Virus record (IMG/VR): IMGVR_UViG_3300034284_002584
Span: 1-27,045 of that record
DNA length: 27,045 nucleotides
Origin: a virus
Direction: 5' to 3' (one strand)
Translations under genes and position numbers: made by a program
The notes under the pieces: generated by a model
Databases searched by the model: none
The model's input: only the letters and a program-made list of their open reading frames with translations
Told to the model about the DNA's origin: nothing
Part shown: positions 3,831 to 26,032 of the stretch, piece after piece
Layout of the letters: the number at the start of each line of letters is the position of its first letter
How positions within the stretch are numbered: position 1 is the first letter of the stretch

Positions 3831-4343
3831 ATGATTGATATCTTCCAAGGTCGTTGGTTTTTTTTGTCTAATTTCTTTCCTTGTGAGATAGAACACAAAG
3901 GTATTAAATATCCGTCTGTCGAACACTACTACGTTGCTATGAAGGTTACTGAGATTCAACTTCTTAATGGTCAATACTATACTGCTGGTGATTTCAGAGA
4001 ACTAATAGCCAAGGTAAAACTACCAGCAGATGTAAAAAAAATTGGACAAAAGATAAAAGTAAGAAGAGATTGGGAAGAGAAAAAATTAGAATTTATGAAT
4101 TGGGGTGTTAGAGAAAAGTTTAAGAATGAAAAATTATCTGAATTACTTTTATTAACAGCTGATTTAGAAATTGTGGAAAATAATTACTGGCATGATAATT
4201 TTTGGGGAAGTTGCACTTGTAGTAGGTGTGGAAGAAAAGGTGAAAACAATTTAGGAAAGATTCTAATGAGTGTTAGACAGGAATTAAAACAACAAAGAGG
4301 AAAATCCTCAATAGAAGATATAATTAAAAACAAAAACAATTAA
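3831..4343 (+). CDS. NADAR (YbiA-like) domain protein
   Basis: This 170-aa protein is a full NADAR domain. It has RWFFLSNFFP (8-17), the YPSVEHYYVAMK block (27-38) with the conserved glutamate E31, and the closing NNLGKILMSVRQEL block after HDNFWG. NADAR proteins are N-glycosidases acting on ADP-ribose-linked or riboflavin-pathway substrates. Some remove ADP-ribose from guanine in DNA and neutralise DarT-type toxins. A short CTCSRCG insertion, which could bind metal, sits where many relatives have a glycine loop. The next gene, a DNA adenine methylase, starts 3 bases after the stop, so a role in DNA base repair or defence evasion is a reasonable inference. Confidence 0.8.
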   Translation: MIDIFQGRWFFLSNFFPCEIEHKGIKYPSVEHYYVAMKVTEIQLLNGQYYTAGDFRELIAKVKLPADVKKIGQKIKVRRDWEEKKLEFMNWGVREKFKNEKLSELLLLTADLEIVENNYWHDNFWGSCTCSRCGRKGENNLGKILMSVRQELKQQRGKSSIEDIIKNKNN

Positions 4344-4346
4344 GAA

Positions 4347-5291
4347 ATGAGTGTTATAAGTTACTTTGGAGGAAAATCCTCTAACATCTTTATCGAGTTT
4401 ATTAACTCAAAAATTCCAAAGACTGGAATCAAAACATACTTAGAGCCTTTCTCTGGATCTATGGGAACGTATATGGACGACGATTCTCTTAAATTCGATA
4501 CAGTTATCTATAATGATAAAAATCGTCACCAGGTGAACTTATATAAGTGTTGTTCAGAACCTGAAACTTTTGTTAAATACTTAGAAAGATTAAAAGAAAC
4601 CTTATTAAAAACTGATGAGACAGATCCACTGAAAAAGTGGGACTTCTATAAAGGAATTTATAAGAAATATCAAAAGAATGAATTTCTTGATAATATGGAC
4701 TTTGAGATTGGTAACTTTGGAAAAGCTGCAATTTATGCTTTCTTAATCACATCAGCTCATAACTCGGTATATCCTCGTGGTGCTGGTTTTAATGGTTATA
4801 AAAAAGATAAAGATAAACTTAAACTTGATGTACTAATTGATAAATTAAAAAAGAATAAATATACTTCTAAGTTAAAGTCAATTACTGAGTTTTATAATAT
4901 TGATTTTGAGGAATTAATTACAAACTATGATTCGGAAGATACTTATCTTTATTTAGATCCACCATATGCTAGATTTAATGAGGGAAAAGGAGAAGATGAT
5001 GCTAAAAGACTTTTCTGGTATGGCGCTGATACTGATGGTGTGTTTGGACCAGCTTCACATAGAAGACTTTTAGAATTGTTAAAAACTACTAAATGTCGTT
5101 GGTCTCTTTCTTATTATTATTTTCCTTTACTTGAAGAGTTATTACCTAAGGATAAATACGTATGGACTGAAAAAGAGGTTTTTAGAAGCTCTGCACAGGG
5201 TGGTAATAATTCAGATACAAAGAAAGAACAAGCTAAAGGTGTTGAGTTATTAATTATGAATTACGATCCTCTTACTGGAGAAAAGATTTAA
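4347..5291 (+). CDS. dam: Dam-type DNA adenine N6-methyltransferase
   Basis: The 314-aa protein is a D12-class adenine methyltransferase, the family of E. coli and T4 Dam. YFGGKSS (6-12) is the N-terminal K-containing motif. LEPFSGSMG (32-40) is SAM-binding motif I, where F-x-G is usual. YLDPPYARF (202-210) is catalytic motif IV, DPPY. A helical target-recognition region lies between motifs I and IV. Near the end, SSAQGGNNSDTKK is followed by VELLIMNYD, as in the family C-terminus. It probably methylates phage DNA, often at GATC, to avoid host restriction; the recognition site cannot be read from the sequence. It is co-transcribed with the NADAR gene upstream and a small hypothetical 9 bases downstream. 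Confidence 0.9.
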   Translation: MSVISYFGGKSSNIFIEFINSKIPKTGIKTYLEPFSGSMGTYMDDDSLKFDTVIYNDKNRHQVNLYKCCSEPETFVKYLERLKETLLKTDETDPLKKWDFYKGIYKKYQKNEFLDNMDFEIGNFGKAAIYAFLITSAHNSVYPRGAGFNGYKKDKDKLKLDVLIDKLKKNKYTSKLKSITEFYNIDFEELITNYDSEDTYLYLDPPYARFNEGKGEDDAKRLFWYGADTDGVFGPASHRRLLELLKTTKCRWSLSYYYFPLLEELLPKDKYVWTEKEVFRSSAQGGNNSDTKKEQAKGVELLIMNYDPLTGEKI

Positions 5292-5703: not shown

Positions 5704-6243
5704 TTAGAATGGTGCTTCATCGTCGTATAGTCCTTCATCATAAAGAAATGAAAATTCTACTTGGGGTCTACTTTGTTTTTCATGTTTATCATATTGGTCA
5801 AACATTTCTACCTCAGAATCATATTGTGCTAAAATATCTTTTTTAAGTTTTTTTGCTATCTCAAATACTTTAATTAAATCCTTTAGTCTTTCTTTTCTTC
5901 TTAATTTACAAGTGATTGTAATATCCATTTTTTGATTTGTTACTTCAACGTCTTCTATTCCAGAATTTCTAAACATACTTCTTAAAAGATATAAAAGATG
6001 TTGCATATCATCTTGTGAAATATCTTCATCCTCATCATCGTATTTAGTTGAGTCATCATCATAATCATATTCTTCTTCATCTCTGAAAGAAGATTTATTC
6101 TTATCTAATTTATCATTCATCCAGGAGTTTTCATCTTTTCTGATATTGTATCCAGAAATATAATCATCCTCATCACTCCAGATGTCATCATCCCAGTGTC
6201 TTGAATCATCCTCAAATATTTGTTTGTATCTTTTAAGTTTCAT
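5704..6243 (-). CDS. Very acidic hypothetical protein with capsid-targeting-like N-terminus
   Basis: The family is not recognised (179 aa). The N-terminal half is extremely rich in D and E (EEEYDYDDDS, DDEDEDISQDD) and is probably disordered. The second half looks like a small alpha/beta domain (DVEVTNQKMDITITCKLRR) with a basic helix. The start MKLKRYKQIFE followed by DDS matches the pattern of the capsid-targeting peptides discussed in the findings, with the likely cut after IFE. The ATG shares one base with the stop of the peptidase gene (TAATG), so the two are translationally coupled and the start is well supported. Confidence 0.6.
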   Translation of the reverse strand: MKLKRYKQIFEDDSRHWDDDIWSDEDDYISGYNIRKDENSWMNDKLDKNKSSFRDEEEYDYDDDSTKYDDEDEDISQDDMQHLLYLLRSMFRNSGIEDVEVTNQKMDITITCKLRRKERLKDLIKVFEIAKKLKKDILAQYDSEVEMFDQYDKHEKQSRPQVEFSFLYDEGLYDDEAPF

Positions 6244-7613
6244 TATTTTAATTCTATTTTTACAAATGTGTCTATCAGTGTAGCTTGAGTATCAATTTTG
6301 TGTTTATTACATATATTTTGTAATAAAATTAAATTATCATAAATTGAATCAATATCACTATCATCTAAATCTACTCTTATATAAACTCTATCACTTATTT
6401 CATCTCCTACAACTTTTACTGGTAATCCATAGATAGTGTCTTTAACCTCTTTAATTACATTTTTATTTCTACTAACAATATCGGCGTTTACTCCTGCTTT
6501 TCTTCTTATTGGAAGACTGTTCCAATCTACTTTAAGACTCGCTTTAGCTAATCTTTCTAAGTATGATATATTCTGTAATTCTCTACCAGTATGTTCGTTC
6601 TCATATCCAACTGATATATTTGTACATTCTGGTATATCATCCATAAAAGAAGCAGAGTCTGTATAGATACCACCAGGATCTAATGATAAACTAAGACCAC
6701 TTTTGTTATATTCTTTACATAATGCTGTTCCAAACTCATTAGAACAACATTGTCTTCCTAATTGATGTGTTATAACAGATACTGTTCTTCTTCTATCAAA
6801 AGAAATACATTTTTTTACTTCTTTAAGATATGGTGTGTTGTCAAAAACACCTGCTAAAGCATTCGATCCAATACCACCTCTTTCTTCTCCTATAAAGAAA
6901 TAATAAAGACCTGGTATATTATGTGACATCATATATAACATCACTGCAACTCCTGCCTTATCATCCGCTCCTAATATTGTAGAACCATCTGTGTAAATTA
7001 TTTCATCTCCATTTTGTACTTTTGAGTATAAATTTGTTACTTTTTGTTCTCTATCAGCTGTATCTAAGTGTGAAGTAAACATTACTTTTGGTTGTTTATC
7101 ACCAATTATCTTATAATAGTTACCAAATTGATCCTCTTCTAAAGGTGGTAAATATTTCAACACCTCTTTTTCGTGTCTACAATCAGAGAAGTGTGGATAT
7201 GTTTTTTGTGTTAATGATAAAAATGTTGATCTTACGTCTTTTGGATCATACACATATTCCTTTTTCTCAATTTTCGTAACTGATGCTGCCATTGGTGATT
7301 GGCCCTTAGATAGTGAGGTATAATCATTTGAGAATTCAGAGATATCTTCCTGTGTAAATAAAGTCTTAAAGTAGTATCTTATGAATTGTCCTATTTTCAT
7401 AGGAGTTTTTTTACCACCAACCGTTGTTACATCGAAGTGATAGTCTTTAGATGATACATCTACGTCAGTTATTTTTAGTCCATTAAAGTACTTTGATTTA
7501 GGTTCACTCATATAAAGTATCTCAAATGCTATATATGAATCGTTATCTTCTAATTCTTTAAGTAATTTAAGTAATTTTTCTGAAAACTTTATTCTTGGTA
7601 ATTGATCACTCAT
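6243..7613 (-). CDS. M20-type zinc metallopeptidase (PepT-like) with extra domains
   Basis: Residues 150 to about 370 are an M20-clan zinc aminopeptidase domain. HLDTA (182-186) gives the first zinc ligand and catalytic Asp. LGADDKAG (214-221) gives the bridging Asp. GEERGGIGS (242-250) gives the catalytic and zinc-binding Glu pair. SLDPGGIYTDSASFM matches the later D-[ST]-x-x-F region, and NEHTGRE fits the last histidine. The family trims short peptides in the cytoplasm (tripeptidase T and relatives). About 130 residues at the N-terminus and 85 at the C-terminus are extra and unassigned. Length is 456 aa against about 410 for PepT. The gene lies in one unit between the NFACT-R protein and the acidic protein. 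Its role in phage growth is unknown; release of amino acids or processing of an internal peptide are possibilities. Confidence 0.82.
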   Translation of the reverse strand: MSDQLPRIKFSEKLLKLLKELEDNDSYIAFEILYMSEPKSKYFNGLKITDVDVSSKDYHFDVTTVGGKKTPMKIGQFIRYYFKTLFTQEDISEFSNDYTSLSKGQSPMAASVTKIEKKEYVYDPKDVRSTFLSLTQKTYPHFSDCRHEKEVLKYLPPLEEDQFGNYYKIIGDKQPKVMFTSHLDTADREQKVTNLYSKVQNGDEIIYTDGSTILGADDKAGVAVMLYMMSHNIPGLYYFFIGEERGGIGSNALAGVFDNTPYLKEVKKCISFDRRRTVSVITHQLGRQCCSNEFGTALCKEYNKSGLSLSLDPGGIYTDSASFMDDIPECTNISVGYENEHTGRELQNISYLERLAKASLKVDWNSLPIRRKAGVNADIVSRNKNVIKEVKDTIYGLPVKVVGDEISDRVYIRVDLDDSDIDSIYDNLILLQNICNKHKIDTQATLIDTFVKIELK

Positions 7614-7650: not shown

Positions 7651-8040
7651 TTAAATAGTAATTTCTTCGGAATTATTATAATCTACCTTAACTTGACCAT
7701 CATTCATATTTGGTTCTTTCTTTACAAATTTAGTTTGACAATAAACTACTGTAACATTATCAATTTTGTTAGCTTTGGAATTTCTTTTAGCTAGTTCTGC
7801 TGCGAATCTAATTACTTCTGGTGTAGGTAAGTTCTCTCTCACTCTAATAACAACATGACTACCAGGAGAACCTTTTACATGCATCCAAATATCTTCTTTA
7901 TCTGCTGTATTAAATGTAAGATAGTCATTGGATTTTGCGTCTTTGCCGATAAAAATTGTATATCCAAAGAATTCTTTTTTCTGAATATTTGGAAATTTAT
8001 CCTTTTTTGATTCGTTGTAAGATTTGTAGTTCTTTATCAT
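7651..8040 (-). CDS. Stand-alone NFACT-R (DUF814) domain protein
   Basis: Residues 20-125 match the NFACT-R domain at the C-terminus of RqcH/NEMF/Tae2: GYTIFIGKDAKSNDYLTF (the family's VGR-N-x-x-N-D-x-L block), then DIWMHVKGSPGSHVVIR (the D-x-W-x-H...G-S-H-V signature), a helix AAELAKRNSKAN, and VTVVYCQTKFVKK. Full RqcH proteins exceed 500 residues; this one has 129 and lacks the NFACT-N, HhH and coiled-coil regions that contact the 50S subunit and peptidyl-tRNA. The first residues, MIKNYKSYNE before SKKD, resemble a capsid-targeting peptide. The domain call is strong. A role in ribosome quality control is an inference, as small free NFACT-R proteins have little functional description. Confidence 0.82.
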   Translation of the reverse strand: MIKNYKSYNESKKDKFPNIQKKEFFGYTIFIGKDAKSNDYLTFNTADKEDIWMHVKGSPGSHVVIRVRENLPTPEVIRFAAELAKRNSKANKIDNVTVVYCQTKFVKKEPNMNDGQVKVDYNNSEEITI

Positions 8041-8070
8041 AGATTATATATTAAATTTCTGAGCAAAAAA

Positions 8071-8098
8071 AAAGACTCGTTTCCGAGTCTTTTTTTTT
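8071..8098 (-). terminator. Terminator hairpin downstream of the capsid gene
   Basis: AGACTCG (8073-8079) pairs with CGAGTCT (8084-8090) around TTTC, with A- and T-runs on the two sides. It lies 16 bases beyond the stop of the capsid gene and ends that minus-strand transcript before the NFACT-R gene. The symmetry would let it work on either strand. Confidence 0.85.
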
Positions 8099-8113: not shown

Positions 8114-9832
8114 TTAGTTAAGTAATCCACTAGCGTCAGTAACTTTAATAGTCATGAACTGCTTTTGTGGGAACCAACCAACTTCAGCAACTGCGTATCT
8201 TGAACGTAACAACATTCTTGGTGCGAATGTAGCTTCAGAGATAACTGAGATTGACTGAGCCATTAAGTAAGGTACGAAAATGATACCTGGTTGGTCAGGG
8301 TTGTTCTTTCTACCAAGAACGATTCTGTTATCGTTATATCTCATATATGGGTCAACGTAGATAGAGATATCTCCGATTGAACCTACTGGATATAATTGAC
8401 CAGATGCATTCATTTTAGATTTAGTTGGGTTGATAGTGTACCCAGCGATGTCTTGAAGAGCTGCAGCAAGACCCCCGTTTGTAATAAGGTATTGAGCAGG
8501 ACCAACACGACCTTCTGTTGCGATGTAGTTCGAAGCGTGAGCAATCTTAGTGATTAATTTACGTTGAACTGCGTGAGTTGTTTCACCACCGATTGAAGAG
8601 ATACTTACATATGCTGTGTTTAAGTCAAAGATAGTTTGACCAGAAATTGGACTACCACCTGTGTAAAGTGGAGCAGAAGTTCTGTTAAGATCACCCATCT
8701 CAAAAATCTTAGCAACGATTTGCTTAGAGATTGTTTGAGAAAGTTCGTTAACAAGAATACTTTCCATTTTTTGTACGATATCCATACCTGTGTTAGCTTT
8801 GATATCTTCGATTTCAGTTCTTCTAAGAGCTGAAGATACTTCGATAGTACCAACTGCAACTGTTTTAGAAGAAATTTTCGGTCCGATAACACCAGCGTAT
8901 GATTTATCGTCAGCATCTCTATCCATTGGATAGTTACCGTTAAATCCAGAACCACCTTGTGTCCAGTTTGCAGAGAAACCAGGGATGTGGTCTTCAAGAG
9001 CTGATACTAATTCAACTGTTGGAGTACCTAAACTTACGTTAGCGATTGAGTCTAACTGAGAAGCCATTGATACTACTGAACTAAATGTGTTTCTTGTTTG
9101 ATCAAATGACCATAGTGTAGAACCACTTGTAACAGCTGTGTGAGCTGTGTTAGCTTGTCTGTAAGCTCTAAAGATTGGATAACCATCGATACGAGAGAAT
9201 CCTAAGAATTCTACGATACCTTCCTTAGAAGCTGTAGCGTTGATAGCTGTAGCAGCAGTAGCACCTAACTCAACTGTACCAGTTGCGTTGATAGAGTAGT
9301 AGAATGGTCCGTTTTGTAAACCACCTGTTGATTGAATAACGTTAGTACCAACACCTGTTAAGATAGCTGTGTTTAACGCTGATTGAGTAGAACCCGCGTT
9401 TACTTTGAAGACTTGTGGTCTTTCGTCAGAATTACCTAAATGAGTATCGTCGTAACGAAAATCTACATAAAGTAAATCGATTTTTGGACCTGGAGTTGGT
9501 TTAACTGCTACTAAGTCTAAACCGATTGTTTGAGCAGCGATTTTCATTGCTACTGGTAAAAGGTTTTGACCAACATCACCTGAACCCAAGAATGAGTTAG
9601 GTGTATTCCAGCTAGAAGCTAGTGTGTTACCAGCTAATGCTGCAGGTTGTGCTGCGATTACTCCGCCCATACCTGATACGTTAGAAGCGTTAACGTAAGC
9701 GTTTTCGTTGATTGAGTGGAACTCAGCGTATTCCGCCATCCATTCTACTCTTTCACCTGTAACACCCATGTTCTCTAATACTGGAGACCACTTCTTAACT
9801 GCTTTAGATTTGTCTATTCTAATGTGTGACAT
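8114..9832 (-). CDS. gp23: Major capsid protein, T4 gp23 family
   Basis: The 572-residue protein matches T4 gp23 in layout. An N-terminal helix VKKWSPVLENMGV corresponds to the LLNKWKPLLEGEG of gp23. A propeptide ends at HSINE (E43), a protease cut site of the (I/L)-x-E type. The mature protein would then begin NAYVNASNVSGMGGV, close to the NATNIA...G segment of gp23. The HK97-like core contains IGPKISSKTVAVGTIEVSS and a long spine helix (TEIEDIKANTGMDIVQKM). The C-terminal region (GRKNNPDQPGIIFVPYLMA, then RSRYAVAEVGWFPQKQ) is highly typical of gp23. It assembles the head shell. The gene has its own terminator and an upstream TATATATA element, and higher G/C and more uniform codons than its neighbours, fitting high expression. 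Confidence 0.93.
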   Translation of the reverse strand: MSHIRIDKSKAVKKWSPVLENMGVTGERVEWMAEYAEFHSINENAYVNASNVSGMGGVIAAQPAALAGNTLASSWNTPNSFLGSGDVGQNLLPVAMKIAAQTIGLDLVAVKPTPGPKIDLLYVDFRYDDTHLGNSDERPQVFKVNAGSTQSALNTAILTGVGTNVIQSTGGLQNGPFYYSINATGTVELGATAATAINATASKEGIVEFLGFSRIDGYPIFRAYRQANTAHTAVTSGSTLWSFDQTRNTFSSVVSMASQLDSIANVSLGTPTVELVSALEDHIPGFSANWTQGGSGFNGNYPMDRDADDKSYAGVIGPKISSKTVAVGTIEVSSALRRTEIEDIKANTGMDIVQKMESILVNELSQTISKQIVAKIFEMGDLNRTSAPLYTGGSPISGQTIFDLNTAYVSISSIGGETTHAVQRKLITKIAHASNYIATEGRVGPAQYLITNGGLAAALQDIAGYTINPTKSKMNASGQLYPVGSIGDISIYVDPYMRYNDNRIVLGRKNNPDQPGIIFVPYLMAQSISVISEATFAPRMLLRSRYAVAEVGWFPQKQFMTIKVTDASGLLN

Positions 9833-9910: not shown

Positions 9911-12037
9911 TTAAATTGTTCTGAATCTTTCTAAGATTGCTTGAGCTTCTTTATCAGAAAGTTTATCTTCTTGGATAATGCTTTCGTGAGAAACTAACTT
10001 CTTAGTAACTGATTCATTTTTTTTCAGATTTCTTGTTGACCAAAAATGTTCAACTTGAGACTCTGTCATTAAGACCTCTTCTGGGTAAAGTCTTGCTTGT
10101 GACAAGATTGACTTTTTACCAGAGTCAGTTAATTGTTCCCAGATCGGCTTAACGTTTTCAGGCATCAATCTGATTACTCTTTCTTCAAGAGATTCATTCT
10201 TTGTGGAAAGTGCTTCTGCGATTAATGTAAGAACTTCTTTCTGTGTAAAATAACTTCTTTCGTTTATGTGAAGTTTAACAGATTCTTGTTCCTCATCGGA
10301 TAGTGCATAAAAGCTGTCAACTTGAGACTTGTTTAAGAATTTTAAGAAATTCAAGTCAGTTGTTTCAGAAACTTTACGTTTTTTAGCTTCTTCTATAAGT
10401 TTATTGATTGATTCAGATAATTCAGAATCTTCGTGTCCGTGGATTTCGTGAGATTCTTCATTATCATCATTATCGTCATTGTTGTTATCATCTTCGTGTG
10501 CGTGAACATGAGATGGATTTACTTCTGAGATACCTTTGTAGTTATCATCATCATGATTATCATCATTATCATCATCATGTGATTGATTCCATGCGTTGTC
10601 ATCGTTATCATCCTCGTCTTCAACGTTGTCAAATCCTGCTGCTGATAAAGATGGGAAAGCATCTTCTGCTGATTCATTAATTTTACCACTATTTAATTTC
10701 TCAACAATCATTCCTTGATAGTTAATTGATTTGTCAAGATTCTCAGCTAAGTACTCAGAGTAAGCGATATTATCATCTAAATGTTCAGCGATGTATTCAG
10801 CGTAAGCGATGTTACCTTCAACATGTTCAGCTAAATATTCAGAATAAGCAATTGAGTTATCAACGTGCTCAGCGATGTATTCAGCGTAAGCGATGTTTTT
10901 GTCTAAGTTTTCAGCGATGTATTCAGAGTAAGCAATGTTTTTGTCTAAGTTTTCAGCGATGTACTCAGAGTAAGCAATGTTTTTGTCTAAGTTTTCAGCT
11001 AAATACTCAGAGTAAGAAATATTTTTATCTAAGTTTTCAGCGATATATTCAGAATAAGAAATGTTTCTATCTAAATTTTCAGCTAAGTACTCAGAATATT
11101 CAATGTTTTTATCTAAATTTTCAGCTACGTATTCAGTATAGTTGATTGCTTTTTCAAGATTCTCAGCTAAATAATCATTGTGTTTGATTAATTTGTCAGT
11201 AGTTGTTCTAAGATTTTTGTTTTCGTTTACTATTATTTGAACTTTCTCAGCTAAATAGTCAAGATATTTAACAACTTGAGAGTTTGTGCTGTTAAGTTCT
11301 TCATAGTATTCAAGTAGTTGTTCTAATTTCTTAGGATTCATGTTACCCTTAGAAATTGCAGATTTGACTTCTTTCTTAGTAGAAGCGATCTCGTTCACTA
11401 AATACTTAGAATAATCAGTCAACTGTTTTTTCGTAACAAAGTCGTTATTGTTCATGTTGAATAATTGATTTATTTTTGACTCATCGGACATTTCATATAT
11501 CCTAAAGTTAGATTGTGGATTGTAACCTAAAGATTCATTTAATACCTTAACACTCATTTTAGCCGATGCGAAACCTGGGTCAGCAACGATGTCGTAAGTG
11601 AATAATTTTTTAAGTGAAACAGAGCCATCTGATTCAGTAATACCTGCCGCTCTTGAAGAAACGAAAACAGGACAACCATCATCGACTAAGGCTTTAGCTT
11701 CTTTACCCCAATAGGTACTAAGAAGTTGAATTTCACCAGATACTAAATTTTGTTCTTTGATATACTCGGCTTTTTTAATAACGTGAGAAGCTCTTGCCAA
11801 AGATGTGTCGAAAACATCTGGGTGGTCAAACTCACCGTAAACAGCACCTAAGCTGCTCATTCTTTCGTTTAACTCGTTTAGTGCTGGTAGAAATTTATCA
11901 GCTGTATAAATACGTTCATTACGGTTTTTAACACCAAATTCGGTGAATGTACCACCTAATACGTACTTATTTTTAGTTGATGAATTTTCTCTTATTAGCG
12001 AACTTGTTGAGTTTTCTACAATTAAGACAGGTTTCAT
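9911..12037 (-). CDS. gp21: Prohead protease (gp21-like) joined to scaffold-like coiled-coil region
   Basis: Residues 1-165 match the T4 gp21 prohead protease: GGTFTEFGVKNRNERIY (T4 has EGIFMQAEVVNRNKRLY), the catalytic-histidine segment YGEFDHPD (H72), and the catalytic-serine segment PVFVSSRAAG (S127 or S128), then the YDIVADPGF strand. The remaining 540 residues have no counterpart in the 212-aa T4 enzyme. They comprise a coiled-coil region with eleven 14-residue repeats of the type SEYIAENLDKNIAY (residues 287-440), a D/N/H-rich stretch (about 465-545), and a helical C-terminal part. (I/L)-x-E cut sites occur throughout (LIVE, LIRE, VLNE, KINE, HINE, LMTE). The tail probably acts as the internal scaffold, the job of gp22 in T4, and is digested at maturation; this part is inference. 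Confidence 0.85.
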   Translation of the reverse strand: MKPVLIVENSTSSLIRENSSTKNKYVLGGTFTEFGVKNRNERIYTADKFLPALNELNERMSSLGAVYGEFDHPDVFDTSLARASHVIKKAEYIKEQNLVSGEIQLLSTYWGKEAKALVDDGCPVFVSSRAAGITESDGSVSLKKLFTYDIVADPGFASAKMSVKVLNESLGYNPQSNFRIYEMSDESKINQLFNMNNNDFVTKKQLTDYSKYLVNEIASTKKEVKSAISKGNMNPKKLEQLLEYYEELNSTNSQVVKYLDYLAEKVQIIVNENKNLRTTTDKLIKHNDYLAENLEKAINYTEYVAENLDKNIEYSEYLAENLDRNISYSEYIAENLDKNISYSEYLAENLDKNIAYSEYIAENLDKNIAYSEYIAENLDKNIAYAEYIAEHVDNSIAYSEYLAEHVEGNIAYAEYIAEHLDDNIAYSEYLAENLDKSINYQGMIVEKLNSGKINESAEDAFPSLSAAGFDNVEDEDDNDDNAWNQSHDDDNDDNHDDDNYKGISEVNPSHVHAHEDDNNNDDNDDNEESHEIHGHEDSELSESINKLIEEAKKRKVSETTDLNFLKFLNKSQVDSFYALSDEEQESVKLHINERSYFTQKEVLTLIAEALSTKNESLEERVIRLMPENVKPIWEQLTDSGKKSILSQARLYPEEVLMTESQVEHFWSTRNLKKNESVTKKLVSHESIIQEDKLSDKEAQAILERFRTI
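10718..11179 (-). repeat. Eleven tandem 42-bp coding repeats
   Basis: Eleven copies of a 42-bp unit encode 14-residue double heptads (consensus SEYIAENLDKNIAY) within the protease-scaffold gene. The central copies are nearly identical in DNA; outer copies diverge (NDYLAENLEKAINY at the upstream end, AEYIAEHLDDNIAY near the other). The 14-residue period with regularly spaced Y, I/L, A and L suits a continuous alpha-helical rod. Copy number may vary by recombination. Confidence 0.9.
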
Positions 12038-14928: not shown

Positions 14929-15362
14929 AATTTGTAAATGTTATAACTCAATCTACTCAATCTGAAATAGATGAAATACTTTATTCTATGTCTTTAGATG
15001 ATGCTAAACAAATAGAAAAGATATACTCTATGTTTGATTTTGTGGAGTATACCTCAAAAAATGGATTTGAGTGTATGTTTTGTATTGTAGATGAAAATGA
15101 TTTATTGGCGTTATCAAAAAGTTATAATAAGTTCGATATAAAACACGATTTTTTTGATTTAACCAAAAATGTCTTTTATGATAATAAGTTTCCAATAAAC
15201 TTTAAGAATCAATATGGTCTCACTGTCAAATCAAAAGTTTCTAAACTTATTGAAAAATTTAAAATTGAATTTACTACATCTGATATTATTTTAGATAAAA
15301 TATTAGAAAAGGGTATTGACAGTCTTACTGATTTTGATAAGTCAGTTTTGGAGTCTGTTTAG
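14925..15362 (+). CDS. Hypothetical protein (145 aa)
   Basis: The protein is not recognised. It is soluble and helix-rich, with two cysteines in FECMFCIVDE and a C-terminal ILDKILEKGIDSLTDFD that reads like a small helical domain. Its start overlaps the previous stop (ATGA), placing it in the RNase R unit. Its stop at 15360-15362 overlaps the stop of the portal gene on the other strand by 4 bases, so the two transcription units collide without a terminator between them. Confidence 0.6.
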   Translation: MKFVNVITQSTQSEIDEILYSMSLDDAKQIEKIYSMFDFVEYTSKNGFECMFCIVDENDLLALSKSYNKFDIKHDFFDLTKNVFYDNKFPINFKNQYGLTVKSKVSKLIEKFKIEFTTSDIILDKILEKGIDSLTDFDKSVLESV

Positions 15363-17077
15363 AACTCAAACTCTCCACCTCCACCTTCACCTCCTTCAGC
15401 TGGAGCTTCTCCACCACCCTCAGCCGGTGCTGCTTGAGCTTCTCCACCACCCTCAGCCGGTGCTGCTTGAGCTTCACCACCTTCCATCGGTACATCTCCA
15501 CCACCTTCAGCTGGTGCTCCCTCAGCTCCTCCTGCAGCTGCTGCCGCTGCGGCTGCCGCAGTTGCATCTTTAGCCCAGTATTTTTGATTTTCAGCTTTTT
15601 CTTCTGGTGTTAACTTGAACACTCTATCCATAATCCATTCAATATGGAAGTAAGGTTTTTCACCATTCATTACACCAAGTAATGTACCAACTATTTCGGA
15701 TTTTTTAGTTAAGTTGTTTAGTTTTTTCCACTCCTCAAATACTTGATTTGTATAAAATTCAATATCTATTTGATTTATTAGAATCTCATCATCTTTTAAC
15801 TCCGGAAACTCAATCATTAATTGAAGTCTTATTGGTTTAACAACAATTTCCTTAAAGTTAGCTCTAAGTCTACTTATGAAATTATGAAATTTAATCTCAT
15901 CTCTGGTCATTTCAGCAGCGTCTGTAATTAAATTACCACCACCACTATCACCTTCAAAACGAGTTAAAGGAATTTTAGATGCTCTTTTTAGTGCTTTATA
16001 GAACCAAGATAACATAGTCTCATCATTCAAGTCATGTCCTGTTGGTGATACTAGTTCCATATTAGGTGTACCGGCATCTCCCTCAGGAAACCAAATTTGT
16101 TTGTTATAAGGTAAGTGTTTTGCTCCATTTATAGTCAATGTACCTAAAGTATCATCCCATTCAACCTCTTCAGAATAATCATGAATTAATTGACCAATTT
16201 GTTCTTCAGCTCTTTGTCTTGATAGACCTTTAATCGGAATAGTAAATTTCTGATAAATTGTTGCGTTTATGATGTTAAACATAATTCTTGTTTGTTCAAG
16301 AATTTTTAATTGATTGTATGGTTTAATAAGACCTTCAACATAAGATGTTTCAGAATAATCGTTTTGTGTTGAGTATGAAATATAAATAATCTGTGAGTCT
16401 AAGAATATTCTTCTTAATTGAGGATCTTCTGGAAATTGAATCCATAAGTGACCAATTGCTGGTTCGTAAGCTGGAACTAATGTTTCTGGTCTTAATCTGT
16501 TAAATCCAATAACATTTTTCTTTTTATCATCATAGATAATCTCAATAGCTAAATATCCGTCAATAAGAAAGTCTCTCATCATTGACCAGGCTGTGATGTT
16601 ATCCGAGAATCCAAACTTATTGTATATTCTCTCAAAGAATTCTTGATATTTATCTTTTATTTCTTGTGAATAATCGGTAGAAAGTGCTTTTGGTGCACAA
16701 AAATCTCTATCATCATTATAAACAATAGCTTCATCAGTTATTGTTGAAATAAAGTCTCTAATTTCATCTTTGATTGAGTATTCTCTAAGTATTCTTCTTT
16801 TATCAGCATAAGCTTTATCTAAGTAAGGAATAGACTTTCTATTAAGTACAGATGATACGGCTCTTTGTGAAAAGAAGTCATACATACTATTTCCTTTTGA
16901 TGAATAAGGATCTTCATTGATACCAATACCTACTTGATTTCTGATGATCATATCATCATAATTCATTCCATAGTTTGATAGAGATCTAAGAATTCTACTG
17001 AATAAGCCTCTATTTTCAATGGCGGAATTCATAGTCATTCCACTTTGATTCATTCCATTTTCGTTATAGGTAGCCAT
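15359..17077 (-). CDS. gp20: Portal vertex protein, T4 gp20 family
   Basis: This 572-residue protein forms the dodecameric portal at the head-tail vertex. Typical gp20 segments are the N-terminal region with RREYSIKDE-type helix and ISTITDEAIVYND, the crown-stem entry FGFSDNITAWSMMRDFLID, VIGFNRLRPETLVPAYEP, the strand YISYSTQNDYSETSYVEG, IKPYNQLKILEQTRIMF, the long tunnel helix (QRAEEQIGQLIHDY), and EFEGDSGGGN-like loops near TRFEGDSGGGNLITD. From about residue 505 the tail changes to an A/G/E/P-rich region (a nine-alanine run, then EAQAAPAEGGG twice and GGGGEFEF at the end), which T4 gp20 lacks. The gene follows the hypothetical gene at 17134-17826 with its own upstream TATATA element. Confidence 0.9.
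   Translation of the reverse strand: MATYNENGMNQSGMTMNSAIENRGLFSRILRSLSNYGMNYDDMIIRNQVGIGINEDPYSSKGNSMYDFFSQRAVSSVLNRKSIPYLDKAYADKRRILREYSIKDEIRDFISTITDEAIVYNDDRDFCAPKALSTDYSQEIKDKYQEFFERIYNKFGFSDNITAWSMMRDFLIDGYLAIEIIYDDKKKNVIGFNRLRPETLVPAYEPAIGHLWIQFPEDPQLRRIFLDSQIIYISYSTQNDYSETSYVEGLIKPYNQLKILEQTRIMFNIINATIYQKFTIPIKGLSRQRAEEQIGQLIHDYSEEVEWDDTLGTLTINGAKHLPYNKQIWFPEGDAGTPNMELVSPTGHDLNDETMLSWFYKALKRASKIPLTRFEGDSGGGNLITDAAEMTRDEIKFHNFISRLRANFKEIVVKPIRLQLMIEFPELKDDEILINQIDIEFYTNQVFEEWKKLNNLTKKSEIVGTLLGVMNGEKPYFHIEWIMDRVFKLTPEEKAENQKYWAKDATAAAAAAAAAGGAEGAPAEGGGDVPMEGGEAQAAPAEGGGEAQAAPAEGGGEAPAEGGEGGGGEFEF
15405..15470 (-). repeat. 33-bp tandem duplication in the portal tail
   Basis: Two exact adjoining copies of a 33-bp unit encode EAQAAPAEGGG in the portal C-terminal tail. 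Partial copies lie on both sides, which suggests growth by slippage. The local G/C content is far above the rest of the window. Confidence 0.85.
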
Positions 17078-24666: not shown

Positions 24667-25278
24667 TTAGATAGGACAACTTGTCGCTGTATAAATATAT
24701 TTGTAGTTTCTCTTAATCTTTACACCTAAACTTTCAGCGGTAGTTACTATGTCTTCTAAACATTCTGAATCAGCACCACCAACTATTTCAACTTCTCTAC
24801 CTTTTAATGATGTGAGAATTTCATAGAGTTTTTTTGGACAGTGAAACCAAGCGTGCTTATTATTAATAAATGTAATAATTGTACCCTCTTTTGTTGAAAA
24901 AATATCTCCTTTTTTTAAAGTTTTATCTTCTTCTTTTTTACTAATTTCTTCATATACGTTTTTGTCAAGAACTTTCTTGTAGAAATCGGCGTCAACGTCG
25001 TAATTGTATCGTTTTTCTATCAATTCTTTTTGGTTTGGAAAATGATAAAGATCTTTGTGTATAGGAATTTCTGGATCCTCTTCATATAAATAGTCTTTGT
25101 CAACTATCTTACCATCGACATGATTATCCCAGACTTGATATACACTATTAAAGTTTTTACAATGTTTCTTTAATTCATTGAGATACATCTCTGAGAAAAA
25201 CTTCTTAAAGGATTTCTGAACATCAACTACTATTAAAGTATCTTCATTGTAACTCTCAAAGGTTCTTATAAATCTCAT
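24667..25278 (-). CDS. Isochorismatase-like cysteine hydrolase with capsid-targeting-like N-terminus
   Basis: The body (203 aa) matches the isochorismatase-like hydrolase fold. TLIVVDVQKSF (14-24) supplies the catalytic Asp (D19). VEIVGGADSECLEDIVTTAESLG (163-185) supplies the nucleophile cysteine (C173) at the end of the glycine strand. A lysine for the D-K-C triad may be K141 or a residue nearby, which I cannot fix. The family includes nicotinamidases, ureidoacrylate hydrolases and isochorismatases; the substrate is not evident. The first 12 residues, MRFIRTFESYNE, precede the enzyme fold directly and look like a capsid-targeting peptide cut after YNE. An AATATATA element lies only 4 bases before the ATG. 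Confidence 0.72.
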   Translation of the reverse strand: MRFIRTFESYNEDTLIVVDVQKSFKKFFSEMYLNELKKHCKNFNSVYQVWDNHVDGKIVDKDYLYEEDPEIPIHKDLYHFPNQKELIEKRYNYDVDADFYKKVLDKNVYEEISKKEEDKTLKKGDIFSTKEGTIITFINNKHAWFHCPKKLYEILTSLKGREVEIVGGADSECLEDIVTTAESLGVKIKRNYKYIYTATSCPI

Positions 25279-25339: not shown

Positions 25340-26032
25340 TTAAGCTGGAAGTTCTTCTTCGCCTTCTTCCTCTTCTTCTTGGCCTTGAGCTTGTCCCTGA
25401 CCTTGAGCTTGTCCCTGACCTTGAGCTTGTCCCTGACCTTGAGCTTGTCCCTGACCTTGTCCCTGATCTTGAGCTTGTCCCTGACCTTGAGCTTGTCCCT
25501 GACCTTGTCCCTGATCTTGAGCTTGTCCCTGACCTTGAGGTTCTTCAAATTGGCCTTCTTGAGCTTGTCCTTGTGGTTGAGCTTGTCCTTGTGGTTGAGC
25601 TTGTCCTTGTGGTTGAGCTTGTCCTTGTGATTGAGCTTGTTCTTGACCTTCTTGACCTTCTTGTGCTTGTCCTTGTGGTTGAGCTTCAACTTGAACTTGT
25701 GGTTGAGTTTGTGCTTGACCTTCTGGTTGAGTTTGTGCTTGACCTTGTGGACCACCCATTATAGCGTTTCCTGGAATTTTATCAACATCCAGATTGTTCA
25801 TGTTAATATATTTAATGATTTCTTCAGCGATATCAACATCACCAAAAAACTGACGTAAATTTTTACCAGTATCGTCTTTAACTTTTTTAACGTACGCATT
25901 AATCAACGACTGAGGAATATCAATCATTGTTTTAACTTTGTATATATCGTTCACCTGTAAAACAGACTCTCTAATTATATCTTCTCTGTTTTTCTTTAGA
26001 CGATAATTTTCAAATGTTCTAATATGCTTCAT
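25340..26032 (-). CDS. Q/G/A-repeat protein with capsid-targeting-like N-terminus
   Basis: The 230-aa protein begins MKHIRTFENY, close to the MRFIRTFESY of the neighbouring hydrolase. Residues 1-90 form a helical domain (NDIYKVKTMIDIPQSLIN, DDTGKNLRQFFGDVDIAEEI). From about 93 to 222 it is a low-complexity tract of GQAQ, PQGQAQ and GQGQAQ units. It then ends in an acidic cluster (EEEEEGEEELPA). I do not recognise the folded part. The start peptide and the presence of a TATATA element with standard spacing suggest a head-associated or packaged protein, possibly scaffold-like. Opposite-strand and shifted frames through the repeat are open only because of the repeat. Confidence 0.7.
   Translation of the reverse strand: MKHIRTFENYRLKKNREDIIRESVLQVNDIYKVKTMIDIPQSLINAYVKKVKDDTGKNLRQFFGDVDIAEEIIKYINMNNLDVDKIPGNAIMGGPQGQAQTQPEGQAQTQPQVQVEAQPQGQAQEGQEGQEQAQSQGQAQPQGQAQPQGQAQPQGQAQEGQFEEPQGQGQAQDQGQGQGQAQGQGQAQDQGQGQGQAQGQGQAQGQGQAQGQGQAQGQEEEEEGEEELPA
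25373..25748 (-). repeat. Tandem coding repeats of 9-18 bp (GQAQ-type)
   Basis: The tract consists of near-identical 18-bp units (TTGAGCTTGTCCCTGACC on the plus strand), with 30-bp compound units in the middle and 15-18-bp units (TTGAGCTTGTCCTTGTGG) further on. They encode GQGQAQ and PQGQAQ. Several copies are exact, which points to recent expansion by slippage or unequal recombination. Confidence 0.88.

Follow-up and report, generated by a model that had tools for sequence, protein, structure and literature searches.

A stand-alone NFACT-R gene with a capsid-targeting-like leader next to the major capsid gene of a virus related to huge phages

Results

Gene organization around the capsid locus

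The window analyzed here is the whole 27,045-nt stretch of the viral record. Its minus strand carries, in order, genes for a portal protein, an S77-type prohead protease, a Gp23-type capsid protein, an NFACT-R protein, an M28-like peptidase and an acidic ORF, with the following features:

15359-17077, minus strand: portal gene (PHROG portal protein)
9911-12037, minus strand: S77-type prohead protease, presumably the processing enzyme, with scaffold-like repeats (phrog_207, E 7.5e-28)
8114-9832, minus strand: Gp23-type major capsid protein (Gp23 match, E 2.7e-29)
8074-8089, minus strand: hairpin followed by a T run, terminator-like, between the capsid gene and NFACT-R (read in the sequence)
8045-8053, minus strand: TAATATATA motif, late-promoter-like, ending 4 nt before the NFACT-R ATG
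7651-8040, minus strand: stand-alone NFACT-R gene, 129 aa, ATG start (Pfam, PDB search, structure model)
8011-8040, minus strand: leader MIKNYKSYNE, capsid-targeting-like, with a predicted cut after E10 and before S11
7654-8010, minus strand: predicted mature protein, 119 aa, pI 9.1, starting SKKDKFP
7684-7965, minus strand: NFACT-R_1 domain match (Pfam)
6243-7613, minus strand: M28-like peptidase (profile matches), without a leader here
5704-6243, minus strand: acidic ORF with the leader-like start MKLKRYKQIFE

Of 42 homologous loci, 41 have NFACT-R directly downstream of the capsid gene, while the contig of the other ends at that point, and the run of protease, capsid, NFACT-R and peptidase genes is maintained in the relatives. 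The leader-like start of the acidic ORF recurs in nearly all of its 23 distinct orthologs, while the peptidase orthologs carry a leader in four cases (e.g., MNLLKYSQIFE↓AG, the arrow marking the presumed cut) and lack it in the rest.

The Pfam S77 match of the prohead protease (E 0.0025) fell under the Pfam cut-off. Its gene runs into a scaffold-like region in which a 14-residue unit (EY[IL]AENLDKNIAYS) is repeated in tandem about a dozen times; every copy contains a likely protease site, [IL]AE↓N. The capsid protein contains the sequence HxINE↓NAY, invariant across all relatives (HSINE↓NAY in the window), which is the likely capsid maturation site (E43↓N44). Together, these two sites suggest that hydrophobic-x-Glu is the protease motif in these phages.

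Some minor features of the region were also recorded. At approximately 7100-7990 in L002 and L014, an extra gene (start MSRPY(V/I)NINS) stands between the capsid gene and NFACT-R and possibly encodes a head decoration protein. In the window, a gene for a NADAR-domain protein (3831-4343, plus strand), for which ADP-ribose chemistry or counter-defence is possible, adjoins a gene for a D12-class adenine methyltransferase (4347-5291, plus strand), and a tRNA scan of the 27,045 nt found none.

Identity and origin of the NFACT-R protein

The 129-aa ORF (N-terminus MIKNYKSYNESKKD) matched Pfam NFACT-R_1 over residues 26-119 with 63.2 bits (cut-off 29.8; E 3.8e-17), and its best relative in the PDB was RqcH (E 6e-16); PHROGs contained no family matching it. 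An AlphaFold2 model built from 22 sequences reached a mean pLDDT of 90, with values below 50 in residues 1-13 only, and superposed on the Bacillus subtilis RqcH chain 8s1u_H with a Z score of 20.3 and an rmsd of 0.9 Å over 106 residues (39% identity), compared with Z 17.0 for CCDC25 and about Z 3 for unrelated folds. Sequence and fold thus agree in assigning the protein to the NFACT-R family (PF05670), and it conserves RqcH-like core residues, including the DIWMH..GSH core that it shares, along with the fold, with RqcH, Rqc2 and NEMF. Unlike these proteins, it carries neither NFACT-N with its tRNA-binding DR motif nor the HhH, coiled-coil and M domains, and it is too short for any second RqcH domain. 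NFACT_N (PF05833) was likewise not found in the nine large relatives searched, two of them of 634 and 642 kb. The model and its superposition indicate that the NFACT-R domain is real, that the leader lies outside the fold and that the rest of RqcH is absent, which upholds an earlier note on this DNA that had described a stand-alone NFACT-R domain without any other RqcH part and had proposed the structural comparison. Lacking those domains, the phage protein could not perform the tRNA-Ala recruitment and alanine tailing of RqcH.

Apart from RqcH, the closest NFACT-R protein of known structure is eukaryotic CCDC25, which binds DNA in solved complexes. Like the phage protein, CCDC25 has NFACT-R without NFACT-N. 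However, CCDC25 has a C-terminal coiled-coil extension, whereas the phage ORF stops at residue 129, right after the domain, with no coiled coil behind it. A stand-alone NFACT-R domain in a virus is not unique, since five BFVD viral proteins of 105-171 residues (M1HME1, M1ICD2, M1HE72, A0A0P0YM59, and V5LR89) match the domain. In the open-access literature, we found no report of NFACT or RqcH in phage, nor of capsid targeting in jumbo phages.

In all 33 cellular matches the domain was located inside a longer ORF, nearly always an RqcH of 500-600 residues with the domain near its C-terminus (NFACT_N was confirmed in two of the 33). Among cellular proteins, the closest are full-length RqcH, with many from Bacteroidota and Balneolota, and the phage copies form a single clade (100/100) that is weakly placed among RqcH of these and related groups. 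The simplest account would be that an ancestor of these phages captured the NFACT-R end of RqcH once. Relatives of the phage include LR745206 (634 kb) and LR756502 (642 kb), and all huge-phage genomes larger than 634 kb have been assigned to the Mahaphage clade and are predicted to infect Bacteroidetes (PMC7162821).

Another origin was considered and rejected. Decay of a full-length RqcH gene by frameshift does not fit the 27 distinct homologs, each of which either stands alone or follows an unrelated domain fused upstream, nor the nine relatives without NFACT_N. Matches labeled as Listeria and Enterococcus phage (approximately 42%, no annotation) look like host RqcH in prophage-bearing contigs.

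The leader and its cleavage junction

The leaders of the 27 distinct phage homologs comprise the first 8-13 residues and vary in length and sequence, with basic and aromatic residues throughout. They end in Glu in 27 of 27 cases, followed by Ser or Gly in all but one and then by a conserved KKxKFP, and fall into several classes (MIKNYKSYNE, MKYLKYFE, MNHLKRFE, MRNLSTFKRFLNE, and MIIKQFSLFE). L154, L155, and L166 are close relatives in the tree, yet their leaders belong to different classes. Synonymous codons within the leaders are as variable as in the rest of the genome, with both serine boxes used at the junction, and this free variation points to selection on the peptide.

In five homologs from scattered lineages (L007, L009, L023, L184, and L187) the leader is preceded in frame by an unrelated fused domain of 100-150 residues. 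The junction [NT]E↓[SG] persists even in these, which fits a processing site rather than a purely N-terminal signal. Two of them, L023 and L187, have a leader without Met, so that only a junction or cleavage site would remain there; this counts against reading the leader as a packaging signal. The 8-residue class (KTFE↓S) also counts against a T4-like site, since it departs from the T4 rule in having no hydrophobic residue at P3. Cleavage after TFE, as in this class, is reported for the giant phage 201phi2-1 (PMC5694885). Removal of the leader would leave a domain of 13.7 kDa with a net charge of +4.

Occurrence of the leader on other proteins

A strict pattern derived from the NFACT-R leaders was run on all ORFs of three huge relatives (476-642 kb), with genes called simply as the longest ORFs from the first ATG. 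It matched 38 of 893, 45 of 922 and 24 of 604 ORF N-termini (107 of 2419 in total), against 4 of 3240, 4 of 3422 and 4 of 2592 internal methionines (12 of 9254; Fisher p 1e-21, 2e-26 and 3e-14, respectively), while shuffled N-termini gave about one match per genome, or about three over the three relatives. The 107 proteins, with leaders such as MKHLKKFNE↓S, MKYLKTFE↓S, and MIKKYLQFIKE↓S, fall into 86 groups without detectable mutual similarity. In T4, the pattern retrieved exactly two ORFs, the internal head proteins IPII and IPIII (MKTYQEFIAE↓A), and none (0 of 216) in 200 kb of AR9, an AT-rich jumbo phage. A chance origin of the leader is ruled out by the internal-methionine and shuffled controls and by AR9.

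Pfam matches among the tagged proteins include an Acb1-like 2H phosphoesterase, a SMODS-associated NUDIX, a zeta-toxin-like kinase, a SET domain, and a peptidase.

Upstream motifs

In the three relatives, the TAATATATA motif precedes 48 of 107 leader genes and 368 of 2312 other genes (p 7e-12), whereas TATATTTG, which we take to resemble a Bacteroidota promoter element, precedes 0 of 107 and 150 of 2312, respectively. TATATA-type motifs are also found ahead of the capsid, protease, and portal genes of the window. We read these distributions as a tentative indication that the leader genes, NFACT-R among them, may be expressed late.

Both motifs peak 4-5 nt before the ATG, which suggests leaderless transcripts for many genes; TAATATATA has a second peak at about 20-25 nt (L024-L055, L056-L079, and L121-L153).

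Discussion

In T4, ten N-terminal residues make up the capsid-targeting sequence (CTS), which suffices for packaging, also of foreign proteins, and is removed by gp21 (PMC10229621; PMC9958956). The leaders described here resemble those of IPI, IPII, and IPIII in being basic and aromatic, about 10 residues long and terminated by Glu before a small residue, as well as in being common to several otherwise unrelated proteins of one genome, and as in T4 the same phage encodes an S77/gp21-type prohead protease and a Gp23-type capsid. These hallmarks of a T4-type CTS were found, and the 11-residue class (MIKKYLQFIKE↓A/S) even shows the Y-x-x-F-I-x-E spacing of the T4 leader. In contrast to the T4 internal proteins, the cargo is an RqcH-derived NFACT-R domain, leader length ranges from 8 to 13 residues, tens of proteins per genome rather than a few carry it, and packaging is a prediction here. 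Sharing across each genome, recovery of only IPII and IPIII in T4 and the lack of matches in AR9 argue for a T4-type CTS, and the breadth over 86 groups, the exchange of leader classes, the protease two genes upstream and the late-type motif point the same way, so that the capsid-targeting-like leader claimed in the earlier note is well supported. Considering these observations, the leader is very probably a packaging signal; its removal at E10 is probable, and the phage's own S77 protease is probably the enzyme that would perform it.

We propose that the NFACT-R protein would be made late in infection, steered by its leader into the prohead core and cut after Glu10 (YNE↓S) by the S77 protease, and that the basic domain would be retained in the filled head and ejected along with the DNA. 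Packaging and ejection with the DNA are strongly supported, and we consider ejection fairly probable. In the host, the domain would most likely bind the 50S subunit or its RNA where the NFACT-R of RqcH sits, and this partial copy could block or redirect host ribosome quality control (RQC) ahead of phage gene expression. The suggestion of the earlier note that the protein, if packaged, could act at once on host ribosomes would follow plausibly from its RqcH origin. In RqcH complexes NFACT-R is positioned near the A-site finger of the 50S subunit (PMC8012679), and a free ejected domain could therefore occupy this site and interfere with RqcH. Two observations weigh against this step. The part of RqcH that contacts tRNA is NFACT-N, not NFACT-R, and of 1956 FCB genomes only 404 were found to carry rqcH (PMC11633108), so that RQC may be absent from many possible hosts. 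Action on ribosomes or RQC is accordingly put forward here as a tentative suggestion, while the explanation taken as a whole, namely a head-internal cargo that is ejected and most likely acts on the ribosome, stands in our judgment at an even balance.

The scarcity of rqcH in FCB genomes, together with the binding of DNA by CCDC25, makes a nucleic-acid role inside the head a serious rival. The protein would then be packaged and work as a core or DNA-binding internal protein in assembly or DNA packing, NFACT-R having been recruited as a nucleic-acid binder and ejection being incidental. This is consistent with the position of the gene, which follows the capsid gene immediately wherever the locus is readable, with the mature pI of 9.1 and with the cleaved non-essential proteins that the T4 core also holds (PMC9958956). 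Nevertheless, the RqcH core residues are kept beyond the needs of a generic DNA binder and the mature domain carries a net charge of just +4, and we regard this role as rather unlikely, with a weak preference for the ribosome.

Less probable still is a cytoplasmic translation factor acting late, on ribosomes during bulk capsid synthesis, with the leader unremoved or serving another location such as the assembly site. The late-type motif, the linkage to the most highly made gene and the persistence of the leader as an internal junction in fused homologs would agree with such a factor; however, the same leader is found on 86 unrelated groups and its pattern matches only packaged proteins in T4, and the Glu-Ser/Gly junction is nearly invariant, which makes this reading improbable. 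Finally, although messages that may be leaderless, given the TAATATATA motif often 4-5 nt before the ATG, could give weight to the first codons, it is very improbable that the leader merely reflects translation initiation or composition in AT-rich genes whose transcripts lack a 5' untranslated region, in view of the rare matches in shuffled N-termini, their absence from AR9 and the free variation of synonymous codons, with serine codons of both boxes at the junction.

Returning to packaging and ejection, if the tag has this meaning, these phages bring a large pre-made set of proteins into the cell, NFACT-R among them. Heads loaded with dozens of leader-tagged proteins could then represent a takeover kit entering with the DNA, including counter-defence candidates, kinases, nucleotide hydrolases, and an NFACT-R decoy disabling host ribosome quality control, a possibility that we consider doubtful at present. 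Delivery of NFACT-R in this way would be, to our knowledge, the first case of a phage virion bringing in a piece of the ribosome-rescue machinery. Moreover, as a readable N-terminal mark, the tag points to candidate injected proteins in the largest phages known; most of these candidates have no known function.

Among individual tagged ORFs, L144:13773-14312, L041:824-1435 and L075:15767-17008 (all minus strand) match the families of Acb1 anti-CBASS/2'-5' RNA ligase, of SMODS-associated NUDIX and of zeta-toxin-like kinase, respectively. The window itself contains two further leader-bearing ORFs without a Pfam match, at 24667-25278 (MRFIRTFE↓S) and 25340-26032 (MKHIRTFE↓N), both on the minus strand. 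LR745206, LR756502, and the 476-kb relative conserve the two ORFs, and their leaders there are of the same class.
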